Made by a program: the position numbers and the translations under genes. From the IMG/VR virus record IMGVR_UViG_3300034198_021211, positions 1 to 21,757 of that record: DNA of 21,757 bases; one strand, 5' to 3'. Under the pieces are notes generated by a model. The model saw only the letters and a list, made by a program, of their open reading frames with translations, made no database searches and was not told the DNA's origin. This document shows positions 6,884-20,831 of this stretch, piece by piece. Numbering within the stretch: the stretch's first letter is position 1; each line of letters starts with the position of its first letter. Source of the stretch: a virus.

Positions 6884-9463
6884 ATGTCAAGACAGATTAT
6901 TGATGTAGGCATAACAGCAAATGATGGCACAGGAGATGCAATCCGAGATGCTATGATTAAAGTAAATGATAATTTCACTGAACTTTATAATGGTAAATTT
7001 CCTGGATCAGTAAATGCAACATCATTTACTGTTGGGACATATTTTGAAGCAAATACTTCAATATTAAAATCACCTGGTCTTTCTGTCAATAATTCTGTTA
7101 TATCTTTTTCAGGTTTTGTTAATGCAGCCTCCTTTGTCCCAAGAGGTGGTTCAGCTTCTAATGGAGCTCTTTGGAAAACTTCCGCTGGCGCTATCAATTA
7201 TTATGTATGGCAAGGCGCTGGTAATAGTTCTATTTGGTGGACTTCAGCTCATGATTTTAGCATCAATCCAAATGGCAACAATGGCGTTCTTTTTGTTAAT
7301 ACAACTTTTGTTTCCACACCCGTCTCAGTAAATGTTGCGCAAAATTTATATGTTGGTGGAAATATAGAAGCTGAAATTTTCACTCCTATTGTTGGAGGAA
7401 CAAGTACAGATGGTTCTATTTGGGCTAATTCTACCTCATATATTTGGCAAGGTAAAGGATTAACATCTATCTATTTGAATAAGGATCATGAATTTCATGT
7501 TAATCCAAATGGCAACGATGGAGTTTTAAAGGTTACTCAAGATAGTGTTTCTGTTTCGAAACAACTTTCTGTTCCGCTCGAAGGTATCAAATTTGCTGAT
7601 GACACTGTATTAACATCCGCAATTTTAGAAGGTGGTAGAGTTGATGGGTTTGGCTCTATTGATCAAATTCCTTATTTTACATCAGGAGACACTGTAGTAG
7701 GAGCTTCTGGTATATCTATTGCTGATTTTGGCGAATCATTGAATGTTAATGATAGAATAATTGCAAATACTTTCACACCAAGATTAAATGCTGGCTGGCC
7801 ATCTAATATATTTGAAGGATCTATCAGAGCATACACTGATGAATTTGGTGCTAATAATTATGTTTGGCAGGGATCTTATGACCCTATTACAAATACAGGA
7901 TTTTCTTTACAACAACAAACAAATTACTTTGCTGTTCATACGCCATATAAACCTATGGCGTTTACAATAGATGATTATGGATATGCTAATTTTTCTAAAA
8001 ATTTAGTTGTCAATAATTTATTTGATAATACTTCGGGGCAATTAAGAGCAAGATATTTTATTCCAATCAATCAAGCTGGTGGTACGCCAATAAATGGCGC
8101 TCTTTGGGCATCAAGAAATAATTCTGGCACCAACTATTATAATTGGACTGGTGAAGGATCTAGTTATCTTCGTTGGGATTCCACACATACATTTACAATT
8201 AATCCAACTGGGACTAATGTGTTTATGGCAAATCCAATGGGTGTTTTTGTCAACACTTATTTAACTATTAATCGTAATTGTAATGCCAATACCATATTCG
8301 CCAAAGAAATAACTACTGATAAACTAAATTCAAAATCATTTATACCAACTAAAGCCATTGGTTACCAAAACCCTGGTAATGGTGCTCTTTGGGCATGTAA
8401 GTCTACTGATAATAATATTGATTATTATGTATGGCAGGGTGGTGGAGCAAGCTCTGTATGGTGGGACCAAAATCATTTATTCAGTATTAATCCTAATGGT
8501 ATTTCTACTCTAAGAGCTTATCCAAATCATGTTGATATCGCGGGTGCAGTTACTGCAAATACTTTCACACCATTACTAGCAGATGGTTGGAATAATATAG
8601 CTAATGGCGCTCTTTGGGCTTCTACTGATGTAAATAATAGAATTTATAGATATTATGTTTGGTCAGGAGAAAATAATCAATCAGGTCATAGTTTGGCTTG
8701 GTGGTCTTCAGATCATAATTTTAATCTTGGTATAAATGATAAAATTATGATGTATGCTTCTAAATATGGATTTATGTTTAGTGGGACAAACATTAATAAC
8801 CCCAGCGCAGACCCTATACCAATATTAGGTTTATTCTCTGGTTCAAGTACAACTAATTGTTATACACAAGTACAAGGTAGAATGTCAGTCGGTGTGCCAT
8901 CTATTCCTGGTGAAAAATTTCGTGTACAGGGATCTGGAATGTCTGTACTTGAAAATGTTATAACTGCTACTGTAGATGGCCGACTAGTTACGGGTGTTAT
9001 ATCAAATGCTACTGATGCATCTTATGATTTTGATTTCTTTGGTGGGTGGAGATCATCAGGAGCAAAATTCCGTGTAGATAGCACTGGCGCAGTATATGCA
9101 CTTTCTTATAATGAGGGTGCTTCAGATCAAAGATTAAAAACAAATATTAAACCAATAACAAATGCTCTTGATAAAGTAACTTCTTTGACAACGTTTACAT
9201 ATAATTGGAATGAATTAGCTGTAGGGTTTGGGTTTGATGGAAAAGAAGATCAAGTTGGTTTATTTGCCCAGGAGCTTGAAAATGTTCTTCCAGAAGCAGT
9301 AAAAATTGCACCGTTTGATATAGCTAGAAATCCTGATGACACAAGCGAATATGTTTCAAAATCTGGTGAAAATTATAAGACAATCAAGTATGAAAAATTA
9401 GTTCCGTTATTGATTGAAGCTATCAAAGAATTGAAGGCTGAAATTGATCAATTGAAGAAATAA
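6884..9463 (+). CDS. Tail/baseplate fibre with gp10-like N-terminal anchor and S74 self-cleaving chaperone
   Basis: An 859-residue fibre in three parts. Residues 1-36 carry the motif NDGTGDAIRDAMIKVNDNF followed by TELY, the N-terminal signature of T4 gp10 and, more weakly, gp9; this suggests attachment to the wedge. Residues about 93-630 hold six repeats built around NGALW, YVWQG and HxFxINPNG, each preceded by a short (T/S)F(T/I/V)P spacer. The last ~113 residues are a Peptidase_S74 intramolecular chaperone: SDQRLKTNI starts at Ser747, VGLFAQELENVLPE follows, and a short coiled coil (LIEAIKELKAEIDQLKK) ends the protein. In this family the chaperone cuts itself off just before the Ser of the SDxxLK motif after the trimer folds. 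The repeats probably form a trimeric beta shaft or glycan-binding modules. In T4 no fibre gene lies between genes 7 and 8. Receptor and exact fibre type are unknown. Confidence 0.85.
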   Translation: MSRQIIDVGITANDGTGDAIRDAMIKVNDNFTELYNGKFPGSVNATSFTVGTYFEANTSILKSPGLSVNNSVISFSGFVNAASFVPRGGSASNGALWKTSAGAINYYVWQGAGNSSIWWTSAHDFSINPNGNNGVLFVNTTFVSTPVSVNVAQNLYVGGNIEAEIFTPIVGGTSTDGSIWANSTSYIWQGKGLTSIYLNKDHEFHVNPNGNDGVLKVTQDSVSVSKQLSVPLEGIKFADDTVLTSAILEGGRVDGFGSIDQIPYFTSGDTVVGASGISIADFGESLNVNDRIIANTFTPRLNAGWPSNIFEGSIRAYTDEFGANNYVWQGSYDPITNTGFSLQQQTNYFAVHTPYKPMAFTIDDYGYANFSKNLVVNNLFDNTSGQLRARYFIPINQAGGTPINGALWASRNNSGTNYYNWTGEGSSYLRWDSTHTFTINPTGTNVFMANPMGVFVNTYLTINRNCNANTIFAKEITTDKLNSKSFIPTKAIGYQNPGNGALWACKSTDNNIDYYVWQGGGASSVWWDQNHLFSINPNGISTLRAYPNHVDIAGAVTANTFTPLLADGWNNIANGALWASTDVNNRIYRYYVWSGENNQSGHSLAWWSSDHNFNLGINDKIMMYASKYGFMFSGTNINNPSADPIPILGLFSGSSTTNCYTQVQGRMSVGVPSIPGEKFRVQGSGMSVLENVITATVDGRLVTGVISNATDASYDFDFFGGWRSSGAKFRVDSTGAVYALSYNEGASDQRLKTNIKPITNALDKVTSLTTFTYNWNELAVGFGFDGKEDQVGLFAQELENVLPEAVKIAPFDIARNPDDTSEYVSKSGENYKTIKYEKLVPLLIEAIKELKAEIDQLKK
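7160..8780 (+). repeat. Six Trp-rich fibre repeats (NGALW...YVWQG...HxFxINPNG)
   Basis: Units start near nt 7160, 7409, 7814, 8093, 8378 and 8603. Units 1, 4, 5 and 6 begin NGALW; unit 2 begins DGSIW and unit 3 EGSIR. The YVWQG motif is intact in 1, 3 and 5, and varied in 2 (YIWQG), 4 (YNWTG) and 6 (YVWSG). The HxFxINP strand is lost in units 3 and 6. Spacing is irregular (about 75-135 residues), so these are diverged copies, not a recent expansion. Confidence 0.85.
9119..9124 (+). other. Predicted S74 autocleavage point (Ala746-Ser747)
   Basis: The codons for Ala746 and Ser747 precede DQRLK, matching the SDxxLK motif at which S74 chaperones cut themselves. Cleavage would leave a 746-residue mature fibre and a ~113-residue released chaperone. 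Inferred from the family rule. Confidence 0.7.
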
Positions 9464-12744: not shown

Positions 12745-15700
12745 ATGGCAGCTAATAATTCTCTCCTTGATACAAATTTGAGTACTAGCCCGTATTTTGA
12801 CGATTATGACCCAGCGAAAAACTTCGCAAAGATTTTGTTTAAGCCAAGAACAGCTGTACAAACAAGAGAATTGAACCAGATACAATCAATTTTACAGAAT
12901 CAAATTAGTATATTCGGTAAAGATATCTATAAAGATGGTTCGGTTATTGGCGGTGGTTGTCAGTTAACATATGACAATAGCTATTCATTCGTTAAATTAA
13001 ACGATACTTATGCTAATTCTACTGCTCTTACAGTTTCTAGTTTGGATGGTTTAGTTGCTACAAATGCAAGAGGATTAAGAGCTAAGATTATCAATACTGT
13101 TCAAGGCTTAGAATCAAAAGCCCCTGATTATAACACTATCTTTGTTAAGTATTTAAATACTTCTCTTTCACCATATGCAAATGGTGTATACCAAACTAAA
13201 TTCGATGCAAATGAGCAATTGTCATTTTACACAGATGCGGGATCTTATCAAGGTAATGTTGTTACTGCTTCCCCTACTGTTGCAGCAACTGTTTCAGGTT
13301 ATGGTTATGCTATAACTGTCGGTGAAGGTATAATTTTCAAAAAAGGATATTTTGTTAATGTTCCTAAACAAACTTTAGTTGTTGACAAATATTATAATAT
13401 ACCTGATAATGTTTCAGTTGGTTTTGGTGTAAAAGAAACAATTGTAACTGCTTCTTCTGATTCTAGCCTTTTCGATAACGCTGCTGGTTCTCCAAACTTT
13501 ACAGCTCCTGGCGCCGATCGTTTAAAACTTGATGGTGTATTGGAAGTTAGACAAACTAATTTAATAGATGCTAATACATTTTTCTCTATTGTTGATTTTA
13601 AAAACGGTTATCCTGTAACAAATAGAACAGATGCACAGTTTAATTCAATTCAGAAAGAACTTGCACGTAGAACTTATGAAACAAATGGTAATTTCGTTGT
13701 TGAACCCTTTGTTATTTCTTCAATGCCATTAGCAAATACACAAGATGCAGATTATGCTACTCACTATAACGCTATGGTTAGTAGAGGTTTGGGTTATGTT
13801 GATGGTTATAGAGTAGAATTTATCAATAATACTGGTGTTAAAGCCAGAAGAGGCGTTGATACTAATGGTATATCTCAACAAGAAGTTTCTTTAAATTTTG
13901 GTTATTATGTAAAAATAAAAGAATTATCTGGTAGTTTTTCAAGTTCCAGTGAAATTGTTCCAGTAGAAATTCATAATGTTGCAAAAACTTCTATAACATC
14001 AAGAACTTTATTATCTACAAGTTATTCTGCAACTACTAAAATTGGTACTGCATATATAAAAGGAATTGCAATAGATAATAATGGTTTGCAAGGCTCTCCG
14101 GATTGTCAGTATAGACTTTATTTGTTTAATTTGACAATGAATCCAGGGGCTAATTTTAGAGATGTTAAGAGTGTAATTTTTTATGAAAGTAGTACTCTTA
14201 AAGCCGTCGCTGATGTAATAACAACAAAGAATTTTGCTTCTGATGCTCAAATTGCAAAATTAGAAAATTCAAATTTGAAAAGCTTGATATTCCCATTTGG
14301 TCAAAATGCATTGACACAAAGCGATTTTAATAATATGGAATTCAAGTATAGAAAAGTTAAAACTGCCACTATCAATAAAGATACTTCAATAGCAACAATT
14401 GGTGTTGATATTGATGCTACTGCCACTTCTACAGATTTCTTATATTCAGGGAGTTCTTTGTCTGGTCCTGCAATGAATGACTTTATTGTTGTGCCAACAT
14501 CAAACGGTTATTCTGATGTTAAGACAGGAACTATAACAACACATGATAGTGCTTGTACTACAATTACTGGCGCTAGTGGTACTAATTTTATTACACAGTA
14601 TGAAGTTGGGGATTTTATTTACGCTAATAACACAGCAAGAAGAATTGTAGGAATTACAAGTGCTTGTACTGCAATTGTAGATGCTGATTTTGGCGGGGCT
14701 GCTGGAAGTGGAACAGCTCACCAAAAAGTATGGTTGAAGGGCAATCCAATACCGTTTGCTGGTAGAGCAAATAGAAGTATGTCAATTGTAAGTAACAGTT
14801 TGACAATAGACCTTGGTGAAAATGCAAACGCAGCATTCAACGTTCAAATTCTACATTCCCTTTCAAGAAAAGGCGCCAAGCCTATAAAGAAAAATATAAA
14901 CAAAACTGTTTTCGTTAAAATAGACTGTTCTACTCACGAAAACGGTCATATTGGTCCATGGTGTTTAGGTATCCCCGATGTTTTAAGTATTGATGGTGTA
15001 TATGTGGATAACTCAGGCGATAAAACATATTCAAACACAACAACAAATCGTGTTTCTAACTATGTTTTGGACAATGGCCAAAGAGAATCACATTACGATC
15101 TAGCATATATGAGTATTATCAATAATACTATTGGTGATAATTTAACTGCAGATACAACTATTCTTGTTCAATTAACTGCGTTTACATATAATAGTTCGCA
15201 GGGTGTTGGTTATTTTGTTGCCAATTCTTATCCAGTTGATGATATTAATTTTATGAATTCTGACAGAATGGCGACGTATCAAATACCTGTATACAATTCA
15301 CCAGTTGGAGTATCTTATAATTTAAGAGATAGTGTTGATTTCAGACCTTATGCTACAAATACAGCTGCTATTTCAACAACTATTAATTCAGCATATACGA
15401 ATCCTCCAAGAACACTATCGTTTAACTATACTCCTTATTTGCCTGTACCTGATTCCCTTTTCCAATCAGACCTTGCATATTATTTGAGAAGAATTGATAG
15501 AGTATCTTTGGATATTGCAGGTAATATTATTATCACTGAGGGTAAACCATCTTCTGGCAATCCAGCAGCACCGCCTGAAAAACAACAAACAATGACACTT
15601 GGTTTAATAAAAGTATCACCGTTTCCTTCTCTAACTTCTTCTGAAGCGGCTGAACAAAATAGATATGACATTGCTATTCAAACGCAAATGAGTCAGAATA

Positions 15701-16446
15701 AAAGATATACAATGAAGGATATTGGTCAGTTTGATAAGAGAATAAAAAATCTAGAATATTATACTTCATTATCTATGCTAGAATCTTCTGCTGCTTCTTT
15801 GCAAGTTAGAAGTACTTCTACAGGTTTGAATCGATTCCAGAATGGTATTTTTGTAGATCCTTTCAATGGATTTGATCTATCAAATACAAGACATCCGAAA
15901 TTTTTTATCGCAATTGACCCAGAAAGAACTGAGTTAAGACCATCGTTTGTTCAAATTAGATCTGAATTTGACTTTAATCAAAGTTTAAGCGATGAATATA
16001 ATGGCAGTCAAAAAGTTGCTAAATATGGTAGTCTTGTTATGTTAAAGCACACAACATCATCAATACCATATATTCAACAAAAATATGCTACTAAATATAG
16101 AAATGTTATTGATGCAAACCTCTATCATTATAGAGGAACTGTTAAATTGACACCTAATGGTTCACAAGCCCCAGATATTACAAAAGGTGTACAAGTTCTT
16201 GATAATGTTGATAATTATTCAAATTGGGCATTTTTAGCGGAAAAGGCTTGGGGCACTCAATGGGGTAATTGGGTAACACAATATACGAATTATGCTAATA
16301 CGATTATTAGCGCCGCGAGTATTAAAGATGAACATTATAACGCTTCTGGTCAAATTGATACTACCACAATTGCAAATAGATTTAATAATACTGGAAAGGG
16401 TATTCCAGCAAATCAACCTGGTGGTGGTACTGTTGTTCCAACTTAA
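12745..16446 (+). CDS. DUF4815-type virion structural protein (first of three linked segments)
   Basis: A 1,233-residue protein. The N-terminus shows the DUF4815 signature: FDDYDPAKNFAKILFKPRTA, then VQTRELNQIQSILQNQI (about residues 18-53), as in large structural proteins of T4-like cyanophages. The central part is mostly beta strands rich in Thr, Ser and Asn. Towards the C-terminus come SVDFRPY, an Asn/Pro-rich stretch, then a helical segment from M990 (MKDIGQFDKRIKNLEYYTSL), which in related proteins reads like MxDIGxLEKRIxxLEYYTxL. It ends in a flexible Gly/Pro tail (PANQPGGGTVVPT). It probably acts at the baseplate edge or as a fibre attachment protein; there is no clear T4 counterpart. 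The next gene continues with a domain that usually follows in the same polypeptide. Translation is probably coupled to the gp8-like gene. Confidence 0.8.
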   Translation: MAANNSLLDTNLSTSPYFDDYDPAKNFAKILFKPRTAVQTRELNQIQSILQNQISIFGKDIYKDGSVIGGGCQLTYDNSYSFVKLNDTYANSTALTVSSLDGLVATNARGLRAKIINTVQGLESKAPDYNTIFVKYLNTSLSPYANGVYQTKFDANEQLSFYTDAGSYQGNVVTASPTVAATVSGYGYAITVGEGIIFKKGYFVNVPKQTLVVDKYYNIPDNVSVGFGVKETIVTASSDSSLFDNAAGSPNFTAPGADRLKLDGVLEVRQTNLIDANTFFSIVDFKNGYPVTNRTDAQFNSIQKELARRTYETNGNFVVEPFVISSMPLANTQDADYATHYNAMVSRGLGYVDGYRVEFINNTGVKARRGVDTNGISQQEVSLNFGYYVKIKELSGSFSSSSEIVPVEIHNVAKTSITSRTLLSTSYSATTKIGTAYIKGIAIDNNGLQGSPDCQYRLYLFNLTMNPGANFRDVKSVIFYESSTLKAVADVITTKNFASDAQIAKLENSNLKSLIFPFGQNALTQSDFNNMEFKYRKVKTATINKDTSIATIGVDIDATATSTDFLYSGSSLSGPAMNDFIVVPTSNGYSDVKTGTITTHDSACTTITGASGTNFITQYEVGDFIYANNTARRIVGITSACTAIVDADFGGAAGSGTAHQKVWLKGNPIPFAGRANRSMSIVSNSLTIDLGENANAAFNVQILHSLSRKGAKPIKKNINKTVFVKIDCSTHENGHIGPWCLGIPDVLSIDGVYVDNSGDKTYSNTTTNRVSNYVLDNGQRESHYDLAYMSIINNTIGDNLTADTTILVQLTAFTYNSSQGVGYFVANSYPVDDINFMNSDRMATYQIPVYNSPVGVSYNLRDSVDFRPYATNTAAISTTINSAYTNPPRTLSFNYTPYLPVPDSLFQSDLAYYLRRIDRVSLDIAGNIIITEGKPSSGNPAAPPEKQQTMTLGLIKVSPFPSLTSSEAAEQNRYDIAIQTQMSQNKRYTMKDIGQFDKRIKNLEYYTSLSMLESSAASLQVRSTSTGLNRFQNGIFVDPFNGFDLSNTRHPKFFIAIDPERTELRPSFVQIRSEFDFNQSLSDEYNGSQKVAKYGSLVMLKHTTSSIPYIQQKYATKYRNVIDANLYHYRGTVKLTPNGSQAPDITKGVQVLDNVDNYSNWAFLAEKAWGTQWGNWVTQYTNYANTIISAASIKDEHYNASGQIDTTTIANRFNNTGKGIPANQPGGGTVVPT

Positions 16447-16464
16447 TAATAGGGTTTTTTAAAA

Positions 16465-17781
16465 ATGCCAACAAATACAACTTTAGAAACAACATCTGTA
16501 CAAACGCTTGCAATTACTCAAAACGTTTTACAACAAGTTGGAACTCAATTAAGATCGAGTCCAATGGTGACAGAAAAAACAGAAAATGATTTTGTTGAAA
16601 ATATTAAAATTTTATCATATATACCTTCGAAGACAATTAAATTTGAAGCGCATGGTATGAAACCTAATACACGTGTATGGGCTTATTTTGATAATGTGCC
16701 AGTTACTAACTGGTGTAGCCCTGTTCTCGATGGTTGGAGTCAAGATAATATTAATGCTTCTCAACAAACTGTTGCATATGGCACTACTGAATTAATGACA
16801 GATTCGACAGGATATATTCAAGGTCTTTTTGCTATACCCCCCAAACAATTTCAATCACAGCAAATTATTTTTAAGTTGGTTGATATTTCAGACTTAACTC
16901 AAGGCGAAGCTGCAATAACAACTGAAGCTGATGGAACTTATTTTGGAAGTACATTATCTTATGCCAAAGGTCACACTACATTTACCACACAAAGCACAAC
17001 AATATCAAAAACTGAGGTTAAACAAGATTTGAGTGTTGGTGCTTTATCATTGCTAGGCGATGCATCTTCAAAATATATACCTGATCCTGTTTATACACCA
17101 CAAGCAGGTGGTTCGGGATGTGGATGTGGATGTTTTATTGGTTCTTCTTTAATTACATTAGCTTCTGGTGAAGAAATACCAATTAACCAAGTTAAAATAG
17201 GCGATAAGATTTATAATTACAATAAAACGCAAATTAACACTGTTAAATTTGTTGAATCTTTAAACGATAAATATTTTGACAATCTCTACAGTCCATCAAA
17301 AGACATTGAACCATTTGCAACAAACAACCACCCAATTTATATTGATGGTGAACTTTCTTGCATTGATCCTGAAAGAAATAATAATTGGTACCCTTGGCTT
17401 GGTAAAAACAAGAAAATAGAAGCAATTATTGGTCCTATTAAAAACGATAAAGTGTACAATCTTTGGGTGGATGGAGATGGTACATATATTGTAAATGGAT
17501 ATGGCACAACTTCAATTTTTGGAGACGGCGGTCTTCTTCGTTTATTAATTGAACAAAATTTAATTTCTGAAAAAAGAGCTATTGAAATATTATACAATTA
17601 TTTGTTATTGGACAAGTATACAATTTATGGAATTTACATTTTTAATATATTTTTTGGAAAATTAAATATTAAGTTTATTAACAAAACATTTGCAAAAATT
17701 TTCGAAACTGATACTTATGTTAAAAAAATGTTTGACCCTATCTGTAAGATAGTTGGTGGAACCTATTGTTTAGTGAAATAA
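16465..17781 (+). CDS. Structural segment fused to a C-terminal Hint (intein-like) domain
   Basis: A 438-residue protein in three parts. Residues about 50-190 are a beta domain (FEAHGMKPNTRVWAYFDNVPV; DSTGYIQGLFAIP; TTFTTQSTT) of the kind found after the DUF4815 part of cyanophage structural proteins. After a linker and GSGCGCG comes a Hint fold: Cys223 starts block A (CFIGSSLITLASGEEIPINQ, then KIGDKIY), TNNH with His289 gives the block B TxxH motif, and KVYNLWVDGDGTYIVNGYG (329-347) matches block F. The C-terminal His-Asn pair is missing; the sequence reads TTSIFGDGG. So N-terminal cleavage at Cys223 is plausible but full splicing is not. A hydrophobic, aromatic tail of about 80 residues follows. 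Start supported by AGGG (16451-16454) before ATG 16465. The mature product may be the first 222 residues only. The Hint call is firm; its activity is inferred. Confidence 0.8.
   Translation: MPTNTTLETTSVQTLAITQNVLQQVGTQLRSSPMVTEKTENDFVENIKILSYIPSKTIKFEAHGMKPNTRVWAYFDNVPVTNWCSPVLDGWSQDNINASQQTVAYGTTELMTDSTGYIQGLFAIPPKQFQSQQIIFKLVDISDLTQGEAAITTEADGTYFGSTLSYAKGHTTFTTQSTTISKTEVKQDLSVGALSLLGDASSKYIPDPVYTPQAGGSGCGCGCFIGSSLITLASGEEIPINQVKIGDKIYNYNKTQINTVKFVESLNDKYFDNLYSPSKDIEPFATNNHPIYIDGELSCIDPERNNNWYPWLGKNKKIEAIIGPIKNDKVYNLWVDGDGTYIVNGYGTTSIFGDGGLLRLLIEQNLISEKRAIEILYNYLLLDKYTIYGIYIFNIFFGKLNIKFINKTFAKIFETDTYVKKMFDPICKIVGGTYCLVK
17116..17133 (+). repeat. (GGATGT)x3 hexamer repeat encoding Gly-Cys-Gly-Cys-Gly-Cys
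   Basis: Three perfect copies of GGATGT code for residues 218-223, ending on the proposed Hint catalytic Cys223. The repeat thus places two extra Cys residues immediately before the cleavage point. Confidence 0.9.
17131..17532 (+). other. Hint domain region (blocks A to F)
   Basis: It runs from Cys223 to about Gly356 of the gene at 16465. At about 134 residues it is the size of a mini-intein without a homing endonuclease. Block A Cys, block B Thr286 and His289, and a block F strand are present; no HN at the C-terminal end. Confidence 0.75.
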
Positions 17782-17784
17782 ATA
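17777..17784 (+). promoter_or_regulatory. Possible late promoter element AATAAATA
   Basis: One mismatch from TATAAATA, overlapping the stop codon of the Hint gene and ending 26 bases before the ATG at 17811, about the same spacing as the perfect element before 9509. AT-rich sequence makes chance matches common, so this is tentative. Confidence 0.3.
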
Positions 17785-17793
17785 TATAAAATC

Positions 17794-17800
17794 AAAAGGG
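17794..17800 (+). promoter_or_regulatory. Ribosome binding site AAAAGGG
   Basis: AAAAGGG lies 10 bases before the ATG at 17811 and shows that the third segment has its own translation start, so it is not reached by readthrough from the Hint gene. Confidence 0.55.
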
Positions 17801-17810
17801 TATTACAAAT

Positions 17811-20800
17811 ATGAAACCAATTGGTCAAACTTTTTATGTTAATGAGCCAGCTACTGGAGTTCCAGGTGTCTTTATTAAAGAAGTTTATGTTTATTTCAAA
17901 ACAATTTCAACTACAGATGCTATAGAATTACAAATTAGAACAACTTTAAACGGTGTTCCTACTAAAGAAACTTTGCCATTTGCTTCTAAAATAATTTACC
18001 CAGATGAAGTAGACGATAATGGAGATTTCTACTTGAATGCATCAAGCGATGCATCAGTACCAAGTAGATTTATTTTCGAAACACCAGTTTTTGTTGAGTC
18101 AAATAAATCATATGCGTTAGTAGTGTTTCCGCCAGGTGGAAACCAATCTGGCGGAAGTTATCAAATATGGACTTCTGAGATTGGGTTAAATGACGTTAAA
18201 TCTGGCGAGGCAGTAACTGATAATAATGACACTGGTGATTTATTCTTATCTTCTAATGATATTAGCTGGACTCCTATTATTACAGAAGATATGAAGTTCT
18301 CAATATTCATTGCTGAGTTTACTTCAACTTCTGGATCTGCAATTTTTAGTTCTCCAAACGAAGAATATCTTGAGTTGGAAGAAACTGTTGGAACCTTTGC
18401 AGAAAAAGAACCATTGTTTATTGCAAATACTCCAATTAGTGTTGCTAAGTTGACTGTTCCATCGATTTCTGGTGGCGCTTTTTCTGTTAATGATGAAGTT
18501 TATCAAACAGATGATGATACAGCTTTAGGAACTAATACTGCAACAGGTAAAGTATATTATTCTTCTGGAAGTATAATTAAAGTCTCAAATACATCAGGAG
18601 CTTTCTCCAGTTCTACATTCCCAAAACTATTTAAAGCTGGTGCAGAGGTAAGTGGTGATGTTACCGCTGTTTCTCAAAATGCTTCTGTAACATCAACAGC
18701 AAATACATTTACTCTTCCTGATCCTTCTTTGTTCAGCGAAGGTGATTATATCTATATCGCAACAAGTAATATGTCAAATACAAATATTTTTAAAGTTACT
18801 TCTGTTGGTTCAACAACTTTAAATTTTGCTAACGTTTACCCAGCTTCACTGGCGAATTCTAATTTTACCGATCAAAATTGTATCTATGGACATATATATG
18901 GGGGTACAGAAGGTAAATTGAATGGTGGTATGGGCGCTATACAAACTTACCCAGATTTTACAAGAGCAATTATCGATAACGTTCATCCCGGAACTGGTAA
19001 TGGTTATTTCAGTGATGCTAATGGACTTAAATTAGTTGGTATGTATTCATCAGCAACTTCTAAAATTAATAAAACAGTAAGTTTCGTATATAATCAATTA
19101 TCTCCTCAAATTACGCATGTTGTGCCTCCAAAAACAGAAATCAGTTGGTCATTTAAAGGTGTTAAAAATGATGGGTTTTATACCGACGATGCTGATTATA
19201 TTGATATAAATGAAGGTACTTCAAACGAACTAACAGACAGCGAACGAATTTTAATGTCAAGAAGTGCTGAATTACAAAATAGACCAGGTGGGACGCAATC
19301 GCTTTTTATTAAGGCTGATATGATCTCATCAAACACTAAAATATCTCCAAGTGTCGATGTATTGACTAAATTAACTCACTTTACAAGAAACAATTCTTTC
19401 CCCCAGTATGAATATTCTGGTTATTATTTAAATGTAACTAATTTGAAAGGTAATTTCAACGAAGGCGATATTATCCACCAAAATAATGCGGTCGCTGGCA
19501 TTGTAAGATTTGCCAACAGTTCTTTTATTAGAGTAACTAATGTTCCAACAGGAACATATTTCCAAGCCCAAGTTAGAACAATTAATAGTGTTGCCGCTGT
19601 TACTGACACTACTGGTAAATTTTCATGTAGTGTTGCTACATTAGCATATGGCGACCGTATTACTATCACTGGCACATTAACTGGATCCGGATCTATTACT
19701 GACTATGTTTCAGGAACTGTCTATAAGGTTTCTGCAGTAACTGGAACTTCCCCAAGAGTTACTGGATTCACACTAGTGACTGAAGCTGGCCAGGCTATTG
19801 AAACTAGTGTTGGATCTTTAACTGGTTTAACATTCTCCGCTGATTGCGCTCTATTGGAAAATAGAACTGGAGCAAATAAAGACCCAGTTCAGTTGGCTAA
19901 TGCAATTATTACTACTGCTGAGTATTATTCAGAATCTTATGATAATGGATATTTCGCCGCCCCAAGGTACATTTCTAAAAGCGTTGGTCTCGCAGAACCT
20001 GCTGAAGACATTTTAGTTTATCTTGCTGCATATAGACCAGCATCTGCAAGCATATTTGTTTATGCAAAAATATCAAATGAGGGGGATCCAAATCAATATA
20101 GTTCAAAAGATTGGACTCTCTTGTATGAAAGATCTTCACCATCTCTAGTAAGTAGTAGTGTAAATATAGACGATCAGGTTGAATTGTCTTATAGTTTCCC
20201 ACAGAGCGTTAATCTTTTCCCAAATAGTGTTTCTTTCCTAGGAACAACAGTAACTACAAAAACTTACTCATCTGGTGGCGCTTCTGGGGCATTTACTTTT
20301 ATAGTTGCATCAAACGTTACTAATATTGAATTAGGTCAAATTGTTGTTGGGACTTATGTGCCAGACAATACTGTTGTCACTGCGATTGATAGTGTAACAA
20401 GAACCATCACTTTGAGTAAAGCATTTACTGGTCAAGCATCTGGAAGTTACACATTCCGTATTCCAAATACAACTGTTACTTTATATTCAACAGATAATTT
20501 GTATGTCGGCTCTTACATTTATCTATATGATCCAGATCTAAGTAAATATAATGTTAGACAAGTAACAGGTGTTCTTGATAACAATACAATTTATATTGAT
20601 TCACCACCTTCGTTTTCATCATCGGATGCATCGATCGGAACTATCCCAATCAAATCAAGACATTCTGCATTCTTGAATGATCAAAATTTTAATATTGTAA
20701 GATATGTTACTTCTGACGATTTAGTTTTTGATTCTTATTCTACTTTCTCTATTAAAATTGTATTAGGTTCTACATCAACTACTATTGTTCCAAGAGTAGC

Positions 20801-20831
20801 TGATATGAGAGTTCTGGCGATACAGGCGTAA
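17811..20831 (+). CDS. Virion structural protein, QTF-type N-terminus and C-terminal DUF4815-associated domain
   Basis: A 1,006-residue beta-rich protein. It opens with PIGQTFYVNEPATGVPGVFI and IQ/LNGVP motifs that match the domain beginning DPLAQTF...GIF...NGYP, which in T4-like cyanophages lies inside a larger DUF4815 polypeptide. EDMKFSIFIAEF follows near residue 165. A YQT/YYSSG repeat like those in the gp7-like gene is at about 214-283, and another GNFNEGDIIHQ-type unit near 19445. Later come SLFIKADMIS, then YFAAPRYISKSVGLAEPAED with YLAAYRPASASIFVYAKI, and the ending FSIKIVLGS...VPRVADMRVLAIQA, all typical of the C-terminal half of those proteins. No signal peptide or membrane segment. 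It likely assembles with the products of the two preceding genes on the baseplate. Function beyond structure is unknown. Confidence 0.72.
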   Translation: MKPIGQTFYVNEPATGVPGVFIKEVYVYFKTISTTDAIELQIRTTLNGVPTKETLPFASKIIYPDEVDDNGDFYLNASSDASVPSRFIFETPVFVESNKSYALVVFPPGGNQSGGSYQIWTSEIGLNDVKSGEAVTDNNDTGDLFLSSNDISWTPIITEDMKFSIFIAEFTSTSGSAIFSSPNEEYLELEETVGTFAEKEPLFIANTPISVAKLTVPSISGGAFSVNDEVYQTDDDTALGTNTATGKVYYSSGSIIKVSNTSGAFSSSTFPKLFKAGAEVSGDVTAVSQNASVTSTANTFTLPDPSLFSEGDYIYIATSNMSNTNIFKVTSVGSTTLNFANVYPASLANSNFTDQNCIYGHIYGGTEGKLNGGMGAIQTYPDFTRAIIDNVHPGTGNGYFSDANGLKLVGMYSSATSKINKTVSFVYNQLSPQITHVVPPKTEISWSFKGVKNDGFYTDDADYIDINEGTSNELTDSERILMSRSAELQNRPGGTQSLFIKADMISSNTKISPSVDVLTKLTHFTRNNSFPQYEYSGYYLNVTNLKGNFNEGDIIHQNNAVAGIVRFANSSFIRVTNVPTGTYFQAQVRTINSVAAVTDTTGKFSCSVATLAYGDRITITGTLTGSGSITDYVSGTVYKVSAVTGTSPRVTGFTLVTEAGQAIETSVGSLTGLTFSADCALLENRTGANKDPVQLANAIITTAEYYSESYDNGYFAAPRYISKSVGLAEPAEDILVYLAAYRPASASIFVYAKISNEGDPNQYSSKDWTLLYERSSPSLVSSSVNIDDQVELSYSFPQSVNLFPNSVSFLGTTVTTKTYSSGGASGAFTFIVASNVTNIELGQIVVGTYVPDNTVVTAIDSVTRTITLSKAFTGQASGSYTFRIPNTTVTLYSTDNLYVGSYIYLYDPDLSKYNVRQVTGVLDNNTIYIDSPPSFSSSDASIGTIPIKSRHSAFLNDQNFNIVRYVTSDDLVFDSYSTFSIKIVLGSTSTTIVPRVADMRVLAIQA
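18450..18660 (+). repeat. Stray copy of the YQT/YYSSG repeat
   Basis: Residues about 214-283 of the gene at 17811 reproduce the repeat of the gp7-like gene, with VYQTDDDTALGTNTATG and VYYSSGS in the same register as the third copy there (VYQTNDNTKTGNKTATG). The stretch AGTATATTATTCTTCTGG (18551-18568) is identical to 5317-5334. Confidence 0.8.

Follow-up and report, generated by a model that had tools for sequence, protein, structure and literature searches.

The open reading frame (ORF) at 16465..17781 of the viral DNA analyzed here (the window, comprising all 21,757 nucleotides of IMG/VR record IMGVR_UViG_3300034198_021211) raises the question of what an intein-like domain might be doing inside a phage structural protein. 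This ORF encodes 438 aa, its stop codon ends at 17781, and like the VrlC and module parts described below it lies on the + strand. The first-pass annotation had placed a Hint domain at 17131-17532 and considered it able to cleave but probably not to splice. This location proved to be exact, with 17131 being the first base of Cys223 and the span encoding residues 223-356. The sequence also contains the elements that had been named, i.e. Cys223 as the expected thioester nucleophile (17131..17133), the block B motif Thr286-x-x-His289 (T286-N-N-H289; 17320..17331), the block F strand (VYNLWVDGDGTYIVNG, residues 330-345), and TTSIFGDGG (residues 348-356). Upstream of the Hint, residues 1-168 (16465..16968) correspond to the mid-domain of VrlC, with residues 41-168 resembling residues 1091-1217 of VrlC from Stenotrophomonas phage YB07 (E ~1e-20), and a Gly/Cys-rich linker (GGSGCGCG, residues 215-222; 17107..17130) precedes the putative scissile bond. 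Downstream, residues 357-438 (17533..17778) form a conserved helical tail.

Evidence for the Hint fold came from profiles as well as from structure prediction. As a single sequence, the module ORF matched Pfam Hint (E 0.002) and Vint (E 0.0035), both below the curated cut-offs. The profile of the module family was significant against solved structures, with PI-SceI at 6e-5 and the BIL domain 2lwy at 8e-5 across almost the full Hint, and it matched Hedgehog entries at 0.06-0.12 in block A only. The first-pass annotation had named an AlphaFold model as a check, with its claim to be given up if no Hint fold appeared. AlphaFold2, with an input of 37 sequences, returned a beta-rich Hint and, C-terminal to it, five helices (mean pLDDT 92.4, pTM 0.87). 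The best Foldseek match in the PDB was the ciliate BIL2 domain 6y75 (2.4e-8), followed by Vint (2.2e-7) and then inteins, with BIL 2lwy (4.2e-5) and Hedgehog 1at0 (2.9e-4) among the further matches and 28 PDB matches at E<=0.001. In a viral structure library, the top matches were entries called 'Hint domain containing protein' from uncultured phages. Both the fold and the residues by which the Hint superfamily is recognized (an N-terminal Cys/Ser and the block B TxxH) were found. Judged by profiles and model, the Hint identity is well beyond chance and the module is a member of this superfamily.

Pattern-plus-tblastn scans of IMG/VR recovered 2, then 6, 48, and 69 loci with a widening query, and GTDB contigs gave two additional loci. 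After removal of copies, the family set consisted of 64 distinct modules of the same architecture, nearly all on uncultured phage contigs, and the wide distribution suspected in the first-pass annotation was borne out. Its mention of similar Hint tails in other marine T4-like phages held in part: many uncultured IMG/VR contigs have relatives, but a tblastn search of 50,697 named phage records (queries: window, L013, L018, and L032) gave no convincing member. The matches in named phages were partial and weak, and many fell in genes that often contain inteins, such as those for helicase and terminase. The unannotated giant phage records of Prevotella Lak phages contain a block A-like match (E 2e-4; e.g. 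MK250021.1:386020-386241), possibly a different Hint or an intein. At L125 and L126 the module lies in contigs filed under Burkholderiales / Erysipelotrichaceae metagenome-assembled genomes, which are probably phage contigs.

The reaction centre was kept in members down to ~33% identity with the window module. At readable positions, Cys1 (Cys223 in the window) was found in 62/62 members and Thr286, His289, and Glu264 (17254..17256) each in 63/63, while Asn344 (64/64), Thr348 (64/64), and Gly389 in the tail (63/63) were also invariant. One candidate member without Cys1 (L118) was rejected as such, because Cys1 is present and an insertion had shifted the apparent start of the match. The C-terminal His-Asn, noted earlier as missing, was absent at the expected place in the window (T349-S350-I351) and in all 64 members; where inteins have their terminal Asn (Ser350 in the window, 17512..17514), the family has Ser in 61 modules, Thr in 2, Asp in 1, and Asn in 0. 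Since the same architecture recurs in 64 modules, decay of an intein is unlikely.

How does the module relate to known Hint systems? These differ in outcome, with splicing in inteins, toxin release in PT-HINT, and cholesterol transfer in Hedgehog. Type A BIL domains have a terminal His-Asn and no +1 nucleophile, and the module, being devoid of His-Asn, falls outside this type; type B is characterized by B-type sequence motifs and N- and/or C-terminal cleavage, and the comparison with it was one of fold, in which the best match was a BIL. BIL domains (2lwy; ciliate BIL2 6y75) provide the closest structure, a near full-length profile match, and the same block F VYN (2lwy), and cleavage as in BIL would be expected of the phage module. 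In contrast, BIL2 ends in Asn143 (6y75 title, C1A-N143A) where the module has Ser or Thr in 63/64 members, and a conserved tail follows the Hint in the module. Hedgehog (Hog, PF01079) shares with the module a Hint that starts with Cys-Phe, is preceded by Gly in the window and most members, and lacks the terminal His-Asn, and in addition a C-terminal appendage and attachment to different N-terminal domains. Unlike Hedgehog, the module has virion hosts and a five-helix tail without detectable likeness to known domains, a conserved appendage where Hedgehog has its C-terminal SRR/ARR region, and its Foldseek match to 1at0 is weaker than that to BIL. Class 1 inteins have the same fold and N-terminal reaction residues, but canonical splicing of the module is not expected because the terminal Asn (as part of His-Asn), a Cys/Ser/Thr +1 nucleophile, and a conserved same-chain C-extein are all lacking. 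Class 3 inteins are defined by a WCT motif and no Cys1, and the module, with Cys1 in 62/62 members, does not belong to this class. Pretoxin HINT domains (PT-HINT, PF07591) likewise sit near the C-terminus of an exposed protein with a further domain after them; in the module, however, the following domain is constant, and the PF07591 match is weak (E 0.04 for the window; 8/37 members at E<=0.01). The Peptidase S74 chaperone is also a C-terminal self-releasing module on phage fibre proteins, but with a different fold and chemistry. One such protein is encoded in the window itself (ORF 6884-9463); it is fibre-like, its N-terminus resembles T4 gp9/10, and its C-terminus carries the self-releasing chaperone.

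Inteins proceed through an N-S acyl shift, transesterification to the +1 residue, Asn cyclization, and an S-N shift, whereas Hedgehog carries out the first acyl shift only and BIL domains without a +1 residue mainly yield cleaved products (PMC7664689). With somewhat better than even confidence, we interpret residues 223-438 as a C-terminal autoprocessing module, Hog-like in build and close to BIL in chemistry, that would form a thioester at Gly222-Cys223 and part the N-part from the Hint and tail without splicing. After folding of the Hint, the Gly222-Cys223 bond would be activated by T286 and H289 and the acyl group transferred to the Cys223 thiol (N-S acyl shift). A nucleophile would subsequently resolve the thioester, yielding a structural protein that ends at Gly222 and a freed Hint plus tail; splicing would not ensue, because the terminal Asn and the +1 nucleophile are missing. 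The acceptor would most likely be water or a thiol, resulting in plain cleavage during assembly or entry. Of the residues required for these steps, the module has those of the first alone, and they are invariant. We therefore infer a thioester at 222/223 that is resolved by an outside nucleophile, and hydrolysis or thiolysis would be the simplest outcome. The Hedgehog processing site is Gly-Cys (PMC5874633), and the Gly-rich linker and Gly at -1 of the family resemble it. What counts against our reading is that the -1 residue is not always Gly; it is Gly, inside a Gly-rich stretch, in 35/62 members and Asp, Glu, Arg, Ser, and more in others. The module is well conserved and catalytically plausible, and it probably works like Hog/BIL domains. 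In 12/62 members, a Cys is found within 6 residues before Cys1 (e.g. GCGCG-C linkers). Because disulfides of the active-site Cys render splicing redox-sensitive (PMC4031507), one might speculate that such Cys-rich linkers permit redox control.

The first-pass annotation had ended the domain at residue 356, which is valid for the Hint; the functional unit, however, includes the conserved tail of ~85 aa and thus reaches as far as the stop codon at 17781. This conserved helical tail had been overlooked, as had the several unrelated virion hosts and the association with splitting of the VrlC gene. In the AlphaFold2 model of the window module, the tail consists of five helices from the Hint to the C-terminus (pLDDT 85-96), and in modules that are not cut by a contig end it comprises ~80-110 residues that reach the ORF end. 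It is one constant domain across different host proteins. No counterpart of the tail was found in the PDB (profile best E 0.009; Foldseek best E 5.5), and kinship with adenylyltransferases, suggested by that best profile match, was judged to be chance. The tail probably serves in Hint folding, in holding the Hint in place, or in presenting an acceptor.

The main rival of plain cleavage is a Hedgehog-like transfer in which the thioester would hand the N-part to a specific acceptor with help of the tail, so that a baseplate protein becomes covalently attached. We consider this unlikely overall, and it is the main rival because the tail is conserved and Glu264 is invariant, which together exceed the needs of simple hydrolysis and would also suit such a transfer. 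MAFFT aligned Glu264 with Asp46 of a Hedgehog sequence that was checked against 1at0, and Asp46 is the base for cholesterol transfer. This match is tentative, however, because past block A Hedgehog was aligned solely by MAFFT and not by hmmalign or hhalign. The overall architecture also fits, as Hog combines a Cys-started Hint without His-Asn with a C-terminal appendage (PMC2362128, PMC5874633). On the other hand, PDB profile and Foldseek searches did not relate the tail to the sterol recognition region, and BIL is closer by structure than Hedgehog. Candidate acceptors would be a small molecule, a lipid, a sugar, or an amine of another virion or host protein. The module might even be a phage counterpart of Hedgehog, in which a virion thioester covalently joins a baseplate protein to a specific acceptor chosen by the tail (another component of the virion, a small molecule, or the surface of the host), although we regard this as slightly more doubtful still.

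The module was found at the C-terminus of unrelated virion proteins. Linkage clustering of the 64 modules assigned 35 to DUF4815/VrlC, a few of which may be linked solely via additional Hint copies. Seven were on the gp5 baseplate hub, five on a protein of ~150 aa, and three on a virion structural protein, and there were several single cases. The L044 host matched phrog_694 'baseplate hub and tail lysozyme' (E 1.5e-33), and at L041, L044, and L089 we take the genes after the gp5-type gene, by sequence recognition, to be gp25-like and gp6-like. On a quick module tree with many weak branches, the host labels were clustered, yet at least 11 changes were needed overall. Exactly one module each was present in 16 records of 43-192 kb, which may be fragments. 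In the window phage, the module is on VrlC and none was seen on the visible end of gp5, a cut ORF at 2-1016 that resembles the end of the gp5 needle and is followed by a gp25-like ORF. At L039:2194-6009, a DUF4815 host has a weak match to a carbohydrate-binding module (CBM_5_12, E 7.5e-4).

The presence of the module on the gp5 hub, with which the tail pierces, would be consistent with an effector role, in which Hint and helical tail are cargo freed in the newly infected cell in the manner of PT-HINT toxins; in polymorphic toxins, HINT peptidases directly precede the toxin (PMC3482391). We nevertheless find this improbable, given that the helical tail is one conserved domain instead of a varied toxin set, that no known effector fold was found in it by PDB profile or Foldseek searches, and that HINT reportedly never occurs with toxins delivered by T6SS (PMC3482391).

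The hosts of the VrlC type revealed a further feature, namely a split of the VrlC gene at the module. In the window, phrog_358 (2056 positions) is spanned in order by three genes: the ORF at 12745..16446 (positions 4-1175), the N-part of the module ORF (1164-1239), and the ORF at 17811..20831 (1423-2006). The first, of 1233 aa, is the DUF4815 part (PF16075, E 4.8e-54) and directly precedes the module ORF; in most relatives both are fused, and in L002 and L003 the DUF4815 part, mid-domain, and module form a single ORF. At 16444-16464 of the window, where both ORFs are in one frame, the stops TAA TAG and a start signal containing GGG lie between them, and L012 and L083 likewise have a short separate module ORF. 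The third gene is the VrlC C-part, which resembles YB07 VrlC from residue 1291 onwards and is in another frame than the module ORF. Both are separated by a 29-base gap (17782..17810) that has GGGTATTACAAAT ahead of the following ATG and is nearly the same in L002 and L003, and no exact copy of the T4-type late promoter TATAAATA was found at this junction. Readthrough or frameshifting from 16465-17781 into 17811-20831 was rejected as the main reading in view of the other frame and a gap with its own start signal; the gap varies among contigs. In YB07, VrlC is one protein of 1931 aa, with the module site corresponding to the linker between residues ~1220 and 1291.

Among the 35 VrlC-labelled contigs, 30 have the C-part as a separate ORF right after the module, with one small ORF in between in a few cases; three contigs end too soon (L082, L097, L104), and L069 and L072, which are maybe mislabelled, have no C-part. 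The position of the cut varies and, depending on the contig, is either after or before the mid-domain. Conversely, VrlC was one ORF in 11/11 examined phages without a module on VrlC. These were four phages with the module on gp5 (L143-L150; records G004, G006, G018, and G019; VrlC of 2016-2032 aa) and seven named phages (YB07, S-H34, ACG-2014a, phiM12, VAP7, Mosig, and S-WAM1), in which all three parts are present in ~1620-2480 aa. The split partly follows from the presence of the module, because the module always ends its ORF. What is informative is that the C-part stays next door and that an unsplit VrlC accompanies the absence of a module on VrlC. Fisher's test gave 3e-10 for the association of module and split, a value that overstates independence because the contigs share descent.

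Its location in inter-domain linkers of several hosts, with the C-part kept directly downstream, could also mark the module as a degenerate or selfish intein-derived cassette that cleaves itself off the N-part while the C-part is translated from its own start. This appears less probable still than effector release, as there is no homing endonuclease, the 16 records have one copy per phage, the tail and reaction centre are conserved, and host labels cluster on the tree. A split intein was rejected, since the complete Hint is inside one ORF. Finally, trans-ligation of the N-part to the separately made C-part via the thioester would restore the single VrlC chain seen elsewhere and would suit the C-part directly downstream in 30 contigs, but it is very improbable because the C-part N-termini (MKPI, MPYV, MATS, MTTL, MGYN, and others) have no conserved nucleophile and a partner of this kind is not seen for hosts like gp5.

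Since VrlC is split when the module sits on it, the data suggest that in some uncultured T4-like phages a structural protein of the virion is trimmed, or attached covalently, by thioester chemistry. A literature search turned up no account of Hint modules that regularly belong to the phage tail tip or baseplate; the phiCbK and CBB papers report inteins or Hint domains in phage terminases and a reductase. The unbroken reaction centre, the module's own tail domain, its occurrence on the gp5 hub in some phages and on VrlC in others, and the gene split together lead to the testable claim that baseplates mature or attach via a thioester. If true, the family would offer a natural collection of small Hint domains with N-terminal cleavage that could be used in protein ligation.

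Some phages carry the module at the end of a tandem Hint array. L031:1-2358 has 4 Hint copies, three of which end in HN-K and stand head to tail before the module, with the array following collagen-like repeats. L032:1291-6681 and L036:1330-6687 have 3 copies each, with two HN-K-ending Hints upstream of the module, and in L066, L072, and L097 an HN-K end immediately precedes the module Cys. In the three arrays that were read, the last copy was of the tailed, HN-less type. By sequence, the HN-type copies look like A-type BILs, which suggests that in array phages the tailed module may be the terminal element of a BIL system.
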